Shown here: positions 1 to 4,305 of the stretch, one piece after another | Position numbering within the stretch: position 1 is the stretch's first letter | Layout of the letters: each line of letters opens with the position of its first letter | Assembly: GCA_021820805.1 (NCBI GenBank) | Contig: JAKADF010000279.1 | Span: 1 to 5,337, forward strand | Source of the DNA: Bacillota bacterium | GTDB taxonomy: Bacteria; Bacillota; Bacilli; Alicyclobacillales; Alicyclobacillaceae | Length of the DNA: 5,337 nucleotides | Reading direction: 5' to 3' | Notes under the pieces: model-generated | Database searches by the model: none | The model's input: the letters and a program-made list of their open reading frames with translations, nothing else | Told to the model about the DNA's origin: nothing | Made by a program: the position numbers and the translations under genes

Positions 1-592
1 GTTCTTGCTTTGTGCGAATTCGGTTGCGTTTCCAGTCAAATAGTATACGGTCAATATATTTAAAACTATATTTATTCGCAAGAACAGCTTCTCTTAACGC
101 TTCTGTTAACATCCACTCTGGATGTTTGTCCATTTCCAGCCATTGTCGAATCTGGTCGTATTCAAGTCCAGAAAGGGGTCTCCCAAACTCTTCCTCAAAT
201 AAAGTAACCGGGTCTTTGTGCCACTCTCGTATTCCAGATCGTTTCGTATCTTTTCCTCGGATTTGATTCCAAAGAGGGCGTAAATCATAGTAATTACTGT
301 GCGTTCCTTGTTCATCCAGTCGTTCACCTATTGCAAGAAAGCCAGAACGCAGAAGCCTGTCAATATGACTCATGACATCATGAAGGGGCATCCCGCATAA
401 GTTTGCAATTTCCTGAGCAGACAAGTCTGTGGTGTGCCTTATTTGACTCGCACCCAGAATTTGAACTAAAATGAGAAACTCCTCTGAACTAAGCCCTAGT
501 GTCGAAAATTTTTCAAGAAAAATATACGGGAGAGACAAGAATGACCCGCCGAGCAACTCAACAAATGCTTCTTCCCGTTCAGACGGTTTCAC
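1..592 (-). CDS. dnaD: DnaD replication initiation/primosome protein, C-terminus cut by window edge
   Basis: A frame open from a GTG at 592 to the left edge gives 197 residues without a stop; the end of the gene lies outside the window. DnaD works with DnaB and DnaI in loading the replicative helicase at oriC and at restart sites in Firmicutes (family knowledge). Residues 1-110 fit the N-terminal winged-helix oligomerisation domain (LSAQEIANLCGMPLHDVMSH lies at 57-76). Residues about 128-190 fit the DnaB_2/DDBH2 DNA-binding domain: FEEEFGRPLSGLEYDQIRQW at 132-151, then YIDRILFDW at 179-187, which carries the YxxxIxxxW signature. B. subtilis DnaD is about 232 residues, so roughly 35 or more are missing. 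The GTG start is chosen because GGGAGG sits 7 bases upstream. It follows asnS as in B. subtilis but has its own promoter, with a terminator between the two genes. Other forward and reverse frames here are shadows. Confidence 0.93.
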   Translation of the reverse strand, partial: MKPSEREEAFVELLGGSFLSLPYIFLEKFSTLGLSSEEFLILVQILGASQIRHTTDLSAQEIANLCGMPLHDVMSHIDRLLRSGFLAIGERLDEQGTHSNYYDLRPLWNQIRGKDTKRSGIREWHKDPVTLFEEEFGRPLSGLEYDQIRQWLEMDKHPEWMLTEALREAVLANKYSFKYIDRILFDWKRNRIRTKQE

Positions 593-2116: not shown

Positions 2117-2152
2117 GAAAGCCACACTCGTTTGTACGCGAGGTGTGGCTTT
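2111..2152 (-). terminator. Intrinsic terminator after the FtsH-like gene
   Basis: Arms at 2118-2130 and 2139-2152 pair over 13 bp with one bulged base and an 8-base loop (2131-2138). On the minus strand the stem ends in GUGUGGC followed by UUUCUUGAUG, an interrupted U-tract. It starts 21 bases after the stop at 2174. It separates the protease transcript from asnS, whose -35 box lies directly in the terminator tail. Confidence 0.82.
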
Positions 2153-2173
2153 AGTTACATATCATGTGAGAAT

Positions 2174-3706
2174 TTAGATTGTTGCAGGGACAGAACCATC
2201 TATCGAGCCAGACATTGCAGATACAAAAGCGGTGTCAAGATGCAGGATGGAGTCTAACCAATTACGGAATTCAGTACCATCAATGCTCTCTTCATCAACA
2301 ATATGTCCCGCAAACCGAGCTATATCAGCCTTAAATGGTTCCAGAATTGTACGTGTTTCTTTTTCTTGTTCTGCCAGAATATGACGCACCTCAGTGTCAA
2401 GAACACTTTCTGGCAAGTGTTCTTCATCAACAATGCCGATTCGAGATAAACCACAAGTTACCATAGTCCTGGCTAAGTGCGATGCTTGCACGAAGTCATT
2501 TTGAGCTCCTGTACTCCGGTTCCCATAGTGTAATTCTTCAGCAAGACATCCAGCCAGCGCAACATTTATTTGTTGTCTTAGATGGTCAATTGTGTACAGG
2601 TATCTATCCGATTCTGGAATTTGTCTTACGAATCCAAGTGCGTTTCCCCGAGGTGCAATTGTGATATGGGATACGCTTTTTGGCTTCATTAACTCACTAA
2701 TAATCGCATGGCCAAGTTCATGAACGGCAACACGCTGCAGTTCATCATCAGACGGGCGGCGGCCTGTCTTTTCACCCATCAGTACTTTATCTACTGAATC
2801 TCGAAACATCTCTTGGTCGATTTGTTTCGCGTCTTTTCGTAATGCAATAATCGCAGCTTCATTCATAAGCGACTCAAGCTGTGCTCCAGAGAAACCGAAT
2901 GTCTCACGTGCTATATGCTCTAAATTAACGGTTTTCTCCAGTGGCTTATCTTTCGCCAAAATTTTCAAGATATGCAATCTGCCTTCTTTATCAGGGAAGT
3001 CGACTTTAATTTGTCTATCAAACCGTCCTGGTCGAAGAAGCGCAGAATCCAATATGTCAGGTCTGTTCGTCGCTGCCATTACTAGTACCAGCGGTGATTG
3101 CGTTGTACTCATTCCGTCCATTTCGGTTAATAACTGATTAAGAGTTTGGTCATATTCTTGGTGACTAAACTGACCACGTTTTCCGCCTACAACATCGATT
3201 TCATCGATGAAAATGATGGCACTGTCTTTATTTTCTTTTTTTGCATTTGCACGTGCACGCCGAAATAAATCACGAACGCGTTGGGCTCCGACGCCAACGT
3301 ACATTTCTACAAACTCACTTCCTGAAGCAGAAAGAAAGACAGAATCCGTATAAGTTGCGGCTGCTTTTGCCATTAATGTTTTACCTGTTCCGGGCGGTCC
3401 AGTCAGCAAAATACCCTTGAGCGGTCTAATGCCTAAAGATTTGATGCGATCACGGTACCGAAGGAAATCAAGAGCCTCCATAAGTTCTCGTTTTGCATGC
3501 TCTTGACCGCCTATTTGTTCGAATGAGACTTTATGTTTTACTGGCGGAGAGTTTGTTGCGCTAACAGCTGTAGACCTTTTCCCCATCATGACCCACAGAA
3601 AACCTGATAGAGCAGCTAGAATGATAAATGGCATGATATTTATTTTTAACACTGCCAAAAAAATGAGCACTGCAGCACCAATACCTATTAGCCATTCTTT
3701 TATCAA
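2174..3706 (-). CDS. FtsH-like membrane AAA+/M41 zinc protease without extracytoplasmic domain
   Basis: 510 residues, predicted to be an ATP-dependent membrane protease. Two hydrophobic segments (about 5-20 and 24-41) are joined by a few residues around KIN, with Lys/Arg after the second: a tight hairpin replacing the TM1-loop-TM2 of FtsH. The AAA+ domain has Walker A GPPGTGKT (103-110), pore loop MYVG (135-138), Walker B IIFIDEID (164-171), sensor Asn214, and the second-region-of-homology arginines Arg228 and Arg231 in GRFDR. The M41 domain has HELGH (329-333) and the third zinc ligand Asp404 in STGAQND, so it should be active. The helical C-terminus (440-488) is present but the usual long tail is missing; E. 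coli FtsH has about 644 residues. The TTG start has GGAGG 9 bases upstream, and its codon overlaps the stop of the preceding gene (TTGA). It is probably a paralogue beside a normal ftsH elsewhere, not the main FtsH; I give no symbol for that reason. Confidence 0.9.
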
Positions 3707-4239
3707 GAGGCTACACCTCCTCCTTGATGTATGGAATATGGAACGACATCGTAAAGATAATTATTGCCTTTTGAAAACTGGATGAAAATATCATGTTGGC
3801 TCATCGTAACACGTGCGTCGATATGGTCAGCTTTAGCTTTCTGTTCAATGTTCGAAATCATTTGGGTATAGTTTTCTTTCGCTATTCCTTCAAAAAGAGA
3901 CGGTGTGTAGGATTCATAAGCAGAATCCAAACTCCAATCTCTATGATCTAAAAGTGTAATGGAAACCGATGAACCAAGCGTTTCTTCAGTGACAGCGACA
4001 ATTTTAGCGTAAGTGGTTTGCAAATCCCCGTTTTGCAATTTAGAAACAGGACCTAATTGTATTGTGACTTGATTTGCTCCAGTGTCCACATGCGCAGATT
4101 CAACGCCGGGAACCTCGGCAAGTTTGGACTGCAGAGGGTTAAGCAGGTCGAAGTGCTGATACGCTTGCCACCCGCCTATGAGTGCAGCGAGCGTAACAAC
4201 AACGATGAAGAAAATTGGAACGAGGCGGATACGTGTCAA
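3703..4239 (-). CDS. Membrane-anchored protein of unknown function, coupled to the FtsH-like protease
   Basis: I do not recognise this 178-residue protein. Arg3 and Arg5 precede one strongly hydrophobic segment (about 7-24) with no lipobox Cys and no clear signal-peptidase site, so the N-terminus is probably inside and about 150 residues outside. The outer part seems to hold two related helix-strand-strand units: KLAEVPGVESAHV followed by VTIQL (39-62), and KAKADHIDARV followed by IFIQF (134-155). This is compatible with a small alpha/beta fold. The TTG start (4237-4239) has GGAGG 9 bases upstream; the ATG at 4244-4246 is in another frame and only 2 bases from that site. Its TGA stop overlaps the TTG of the protease gene, so the two are translationally coupled. 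A promoter lies just upstream. Inference: an adaptor, regulator or outer domain for the protease. The function is unproven. Confidence 0.8.
   Translation of the reverse strand: MTRIRLVPIFFIVVVTLAALIGGWQAYQHFDLLNPLQSKLAEVPGVESAHVDTGANQVTIQLGPVSKLQNGDLQTTYAKIVAVTEETLGSSVSITLLDHRDWSLDSAYESYTPSLFEGIAKENYTQMISNIEQKAKADHIDARVTMSQHDIFIQFSKGNNYLYDVVPYSIHQGGGVAS
3714..3720 (-). promoter_or_regulatory. Ribosome binding site of the FtsH-like gene
   Basis: GGAGGTG on the minus strand inside the last codons of the 178-residue gene, with GGAGG 9 bases before TTG 3704-3706. It supports the TTG start; the next in-frame ATG (Met25) would cut away the first membrane segment. Confidence 0.8.
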
Positions 4240-4248
4240 TAAACATCG

Positions 4249-4253
4249 CCTCC
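4249..4253 (-). promoter_or_regulatory. Ribosome binding site of the 178-residue gene
   Basis: GGAGG on the minus strand (within AGGAGGCG), 9 bases before TTG 4237-4239 but only 2 bases before the out-of-frame ATG at 4244-4246. It therefore selects the TTG. Confidence 0.78.
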
Positions 4254-4276
4254 TGTCTGGTCATTTAACAGTATCT

Positions 4277-4305
4277 AGTATAGCACGGCCAGGCAGAAGT
4301 GCTTA
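4277..4305 (-). promoter_or_regulatory. Promoter of the membrane protein/FtsH-like unit, extended -10 type
   Basis: On the minus strand TATACT (4277-4282) is preceded by TGC (4283-4285). At 17 bp spacing the -35 is TAAGCA (4300-4305), 3 of 6 to consensus. Transcription would start near 4270, about 30 bases before the TTG start. No terminator is visible between ypmB and this promoter, so readthrough from upstream could add to its output. Confidence 0.6.
4282..4303. repeat. Small inverted repeat across the promoter (possible operator)
   Basis: AGCAC (4282-4286) and GTGCT (4299-4303) form 5-base inverted arms, 12 bases apart. One arm touches the -10 and the other overlaps the -35 of the promoter for the membrane protein/protease unit. 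The position suits a regulator site, but 5-base arms can arise by chance. Confidence 0.25.

Follow-up and report, generated by a model that had tools for sequence, protein, structure and literature searches.

FtsH is described as a central membrane-bound and ATP-dependent protease of bacteria, and how its transmembrane and outside parts are built and function is still regarded as open (PMC8943139). Other membrane proteins are reported to act together with this protease. In E. coli, HflK/C docks on the periplasmic domain of FtsH (PMC12067869), and in B. subtilis the rhomboid protease YqgP, which has a cytosolic N-terminal domain, is presented as a membrane adaptor handing substrate to FtsH (PMC7231995). 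TseB (YpmB) of B. subtilis has been connected with cell division (PMC4406074), and two to three ftsH copies were counted in acidophilic Bacillota (PMC10490939). Within open-licence papers, a scope outside which most subscription journals lie, we found none on the gene pair described here.

The window, that is the whole stretch of 5,337 nucleotides analysed, carries all of its seven genes on the minus strand in the order surE (end only)-ypmA (DUF4264)-ypmB-like-mem-ftsHL-asnS-dnaD, where the name ypmB is based on place and relatives. We use mem for the gene of a small single-span membrane protein and for its product, and ftsHL for the coupled gene of an FtsH-like protease (FtsHL). An earlier, sequence-only reading had placed two genes with overlapping stop and start codons (TTGA) between ypmB and asnS and described the products as an unknown single-span membrane protein and an FtsH-like protease. 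The open reading frames and the sequence confirmed this arrangement, and hydropathy and Pfam matches confirmed the nature of the two proteins (Table 1). The ribosome-binding site of ftsHL, of the GGAGG type, lies within the last codons of mem. The two frames overlapped in 34/44 loci with both frames, and their spacing was at most 8 nt in either direction in 41/44; the remaining three gaps (25, 21 and -35) hinge on the start codon chosen. In the tree, FtsHL of the window groups with Alicyclobacillaceae (NCBI class Bacilli).

Table 1. Features of the mem-ftsHL locus (nucleotide positions refer to the window, residue numbers to the mem protein).
Feature	Position	Strand	Description
mem	4239..3703	-	ORF, 178 aa, TTG start
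ftsHL	3706..2174	-	ORF, 510 aa, TTG start; AAA+/M41 protease
mem/ftsHL junction	3703..3706	-	TTGA, 4 nt; ftsHL start overlaps mem stop
-35 of mem promoter	4305-4300	-	TAAGCA; weak, 3/6 match
Extended -10 of mem	4285-4277	-	TGCTATACT; motif TGNTATA[AC]T
Hairpin terminator 3' of ftsHL	2118-2152	-	-17.9 kcal/mol, z -3.68
asnS promoter-like site (separate unit)	2116-2089	-	TTGATG-16-TATAAT, 10/12, TG before -10
mem protein parts	span ~6-28; outside domain ~45-168		predicted; short positive N-terminus, one span, extracytoplasmic alpha/beta domain

FtsHL shares the AAA+-M41 order and the key residues with FtsH, both with the model TIGR01241 and with the canonical paralogue encoded in the same genomes. 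Pfam matches were to AAA (3.1e-40), AAA_lid_3 and Peptidase_M41 (3.7e-34), and the score against TIGR01241 was 477.5 bits, under the curated cut-off of 600. Walker A/B, the SRH arginines, HExGH and the Asp of the ND motif, which we take to be the third zinc ligand of M41 proteases, were kept in 44/44 FtsHL relatives. In contrast to FtsH, FtsHL lacks the outside domain, falls into a clade of its own and has a coupled partner gene. It also differs in the aromatic pore residue, which is Tyr in 44/44 FtsHL versus Phe in 6/6 canonical-type rows, five of them from FtsHL-bearing genomes and one from Thermomicrobiaceae. Whereas canonical FtsH is predicted to have a first span, about 90 residues outside and a second span (three rows examined), FtsHL has no extracytoplasmic domain. 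A hydrophobic hairpin is left, at about residues 7-42 in the window protein and with a length of 36-38 residues in 45 rows. Its turn is often G-x-N-x-x-P, a positively charged segment lies C-terminal to it, and G8, F16 and P26 are kept in about 95% or more of the rows. Hydropathy resolved one or two segments here depending on the row, with a single one for the window protein, and instead of two full spans the hairpin may form a re-entrant loop.

In a tree of 95 rows the 45 FtsHL rows formed a single clade with a support of 100, separate from canonical FtsH and from other paralogues. The tree was midpoint-rooted and long branches meet at its root, so that the exact origin of FtsHL is unsure. 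Other FtsH paralogues (L126-L129, L158), with 38-43% identity to FtsHL of the window, occur in some genomes of the class, and L127-L129 among them make up a long-branched group. No mem was seen in the stretches of about 4.3 kb around these five loci, and mem therefore goes with FtsHL and not with FtsH-like proteins generally. Three FtsHL relatives (P0054, P0062 and P0064) bear the public names 'vesicle-fusing ATPase' or 'microtubule-severing ATPase', which look like misannotations.

Residues 1-7 of mem were net positive in 45/45 sequences, in line with an N-in orientation, and AF2 modelling gave a pLDDT of 85.4 for the whole protein and a confident 94.6 for the outside domain alone. The mean entropy was lowest in the span segment, and L20, G23, Y27 and P35 were conserved to over 90%; M146 in the outside domain was as conserved as the span. 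No family in Pfam or NCBIfam matched mem above cut-off. A search of the outside-domain model against the PDB found no clear structural relative, and the fold yielded no functional lead.

Mem would resemble HflK/C as a membrane-bound partner that controls an FtsH-type protease and has a domain outside the membrane. The two systems differ in that FtsHL is without the periplasmic domain bound by HflK/C, and in that mem had no SPFH/Band_7 match in Pfam at E 1 for the window protein or at E 0.1 for eight relatives. With YqgP it would share the service to an FtsH-type protease, but mem consists of one span and an outside domain, unlike the rhomboid architecture described for YqgP, and to our knowledge yqgP is not coupled to ftsH. 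Mem is also similar to the product of the neighbouring gene, YpmB/TseB (2gu3), in which a single N-terminal span likewise precedes an outside domain comparable in size. It had no TseB/PepSY match, a weak difference since the same TseB model also misses the ypmB-like protein of the window: among eight ypmB-like proteins three reached the cut-off of this model, two stayed below it and that of the window gave no match.

The initial description of the locus had further proposed that the pair is a dedicated proteolytic module, to be checked by a survey of genomes. In the near loci with a complete upstream side mem was directly 5' of ftsHL in 19/19, a count from which L016 was left out as it is cut by a contig end. 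In a family sample of 41 genomes, mem was present in 40 and an FtsHL-type match (E below 1e-240) likewise in 40. G036 (1.8 Mb) had neither; its assembly is probably incomplete, because canonical FtsH was also missing at E 1e-80. A second, canonical-type FtsH match was found in 39/41 of these genomes (all except G034 and G036). In the order sample, 56/59 genomes had mem.

Among the 398 genomes of a class sample, mem was detected in 194, ftsHL in 195 and both in 189. This sample was drawn evenly over groups, so that 195/398 is not a share of species. We applied a narrow profile with E <= 0.01 for mem and a cut-off of E <= 1e-112 for ftsHL, scoring the best eight or best three candidates per genome, respectively; the latter cut-off shuts out canonical FtsH, for which the best E was about 5e-104 where listed. 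For the six genomes with ftsHL only (G070, G100, G140, G221, G326 and G334) a wider profile found mem directly upstream in 6/6. The matches in the five genomes with mem only (G149, G183, G237, G292 and G307) were marginal (E 0.005-0.01) and are probably due to chance. Among the matches listed, 150 places per class-sample search, 124 genomes were common to the mem and ftsHL searches, and mem and ftsHL were adjacent and on one strand in 124/124 of them; outside of this count, they were on different contigs in G133 and G136 and, in the family sample, in G039. The small gene was thus not seen without the protease in many genomes (5/398), nor was the protease seen with unrelated neighbours among the matches listed, and the joint presence together with this adjacency supports the proposed module.

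In-frame stops were observed in mem of G023 (C16:70059-70571), G044 (C82:18894-19400) and G076 (C35:158011-158520) and in ftsHL of G013 (C29:9470-10978), and may represent assembly errors or decay. The second copy in 195 genomes of the class sample weakens, but does not refute, the idea that a second ftsH reflects adaptation to acid.

The split between presence and absence mostly follows one clade. There were therefore few independent events, and the Fisher value for the pairing of mem and ftsHL overstates independence. In the subtree of canonical FtsH, 19 rows from ftsHL-bearing genomes fell into one clade of 23 rows, with a support of 87 that is not strong. The same clade holds four rows of ftsHL-less genomes at two places, G088 at one and G060, G083 and G101 together at the other. 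If this tree is right, ftsHL would therefore have been lost at least twice, and the class-sample search gave no mem match in any of these four genomes. In one small order, 4/5 genomes have mem and ftsHL, and G088 has neither, also by a wider mem alignment.

Co-divergence was also considered as support for the pairing. The mirror-tree Spearman correlation between mem and ftsHL was 0.77-0.91 in wide sets. The partial correlation was about 0.87-0.88 with asnS as control and 0.78 with dnaD, but only 0.38 with ypmB, and within 17 Alicyclobacillaceae the value was 0.527, the second lowest of 10 gene pairs. Strong with the asnS control, this line of support failed with the ypmB control and within the family, and we do not use it.

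Gene coupling, joint presence and absence, an intact active site, a missing outside domain and a predicted topology are what can be observed in these loci. We consider it an evenly balanced proposition that mem and FtsHL make up one membrane proteolytic machine, in which FtsHL, as an FtsH variant devoid of an outside domain, would have mem as its dedicated partner on the extracytoplasmic side. Judging from its family, FtsHL would, like FtsH, assemble on the cytoplasmic face of the membrane into a ring powered by ATP. The aromatic pore loop would pull in membrane or cytoplasmic substrates, and the zinc protease, whose active-site residues are intact, would cut them. Mem would be an obligate partner with its span packed against the FtsHL hairpin, and its outward domain might take over the job of the FtsH periplasmic domain by sensing the envelope or substrates and by controlling or feeding the protease. 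The binding of mem to FtsHL, the stoichiometry, the direction of control, the role as adaptor or regulator and the assembly of a hexamer are parts of this machine that we infer. A membrane partner replacing the outside domain is reasonable because, in the papers cited above, HflK/C docks on this domain of FtsH and YqgP delivers substrate to FtsH. The coupling of the two genes would also fit mere co-expression.

More tentatively, and with a probability that we place clearly below even, the pair might represent an FtsH split in two. An FtsH paralogue would have shed its outside domain within one branch of Bacilli, and the co-translated mem would form an extracytoplasmic ring or sensor in trans. 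Envelope signals might then reach the cytoplasmic protease via the contact between the GGW-Y span of mem and the G-x-N-x-x-P hairpin.

Mem could also inhibit FtsHL and be its regulated substrate, or either of these: co-produced with the protease, it would keep the latter in check and itself be degraded upon a signal. The pairing and coupling data apply here in the same way, and the wider profile left zero protease-only genomes, as expected if the free protease were harmful. We nevertheless find this role rather unlikely, as the folded outside domain of about 120 residues, kept class-wide, would exceed the needs of a simple inhibitor. From sequence data, the adaptor and the inhibitor or substrate would hardly be told apart.

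A further explanation is that a general quality-control FtsH paralogue and an unrelated membrane protein are ordinary operon neighbours, joined by location only. The order surE-ypmA-ypmB-mem-ftsHL-asnS-dnaD is indeed largely conserved in the family, and within the family mem and ftsHL did not specifically co-diverge. However, mem and ftsHL stayed together at several wider loci (L079, L081 and L084) that gave no asnS or dnaD match within the 4-5.5 kb covered downstream, and this together with the consistent adjacency among the matches listed makes a purely positional association improbable.

A ypmB-like gene lies 5' of the pair in 18/19 near loci and in at least 9/20 wider loci (six, and three more via Pfam TseB above cut-off), and the downstream side varies. 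Some loci deviate from the usual order. An asnS match was absent between ftsHL and dnaD in L012 (~8452-8712) and L015 (~8542-8689), both Alicyclobacillaceae, from which the other 17 complete loci differ, and a ypmB match was absent at its usual place between ypmA and mem in L001 (6182-6465). A gene similar to that of 3-hydroxybutyryl-CoA dehydrogenase and an acetate kinase gene follow ftsHL in two distant lineages (L079, 9260-11328; L088, 9144-11231).

Presumably aspB lies between ypmB and asnS in B. subtilis, and we know of no second FtsH in this organism; M41 matches were obtained there in a control search. The sequence-only reading had assigned the pair to the position of aspB, which holds in so far as the pair lies between ypmB and asnS. 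A replacement of aspB was rejected, since L088 has both. Between ftsHL and asnS this locus carries first a gene resembling that of 3-hydroxybutyryl-CoA dehydrogenase (321 bits against a cut-off of 408), then an acetate/propionate kinase gene that exceeds its cut-off, and last a gene resembling that of aspartate aminotransferase (455.6 bits against a cut-off of 550). An aspB-like identity of the gene after asnS in L074 was dropped, since a model search gave no match. The pair is an extra module and no substitute for aspB.

A promoter and a terminator of their own had also been ascribed to the two genes, and both were upheld with qualifications. The extended -10 motif was present 5' of mem in 20/20 regions versus 0.1 expected from mononucleotide shuffling; these came from the window (81 bases) and from 19 relatives (180 bases each) that are not independent, FtsHL being identical in L010 and L020 and L002 and L004 being very close. 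The -35 is weak, though, and a consensus promoter scanner, which found 14 sites in the window versus 11.0 expected, listed none between ypmB and mem. At the 3' end of ftsHL the stem of the hairpin was equalled by 2/200 shuffles, its T tract is short and weak, and a simple terminator scanner did not list it.

That the pair serves wall growth or division together with the neighbour YpmB/TseB, with mem as part of the envelope machinery and trimmed by FtsHL, is the least probable reading. The frequent ypmB-like gene upstream and the division link of TseB speak for it, but in all 20 regions mem is set apart from ypmB by a promoter element of its own, and ypmB is presumably present in B. subtilis without the pair.

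The pairing of mem and FtsHL is easily overlooked because the annotated names vary and the partner is a 'hypothetical protein': public names of FtsHL members are 'cell division protease FtsH', 'AAA family ATPase' and 'vesicle-fusing ATPase'. An FtsH-type protease as such is already known. The variant without outside domain and with a putative dedicated partner is real, consistently paired and common, with FtsHL in 195/398 class-sampled genomes, and the joint function that we infer for it would be that of a membrane proteolytic machine. As a natural FtsH variant in which the outside part is missing and a separate gene encodes a partner, it would make the role of the outside part testable by gene addition or removal.
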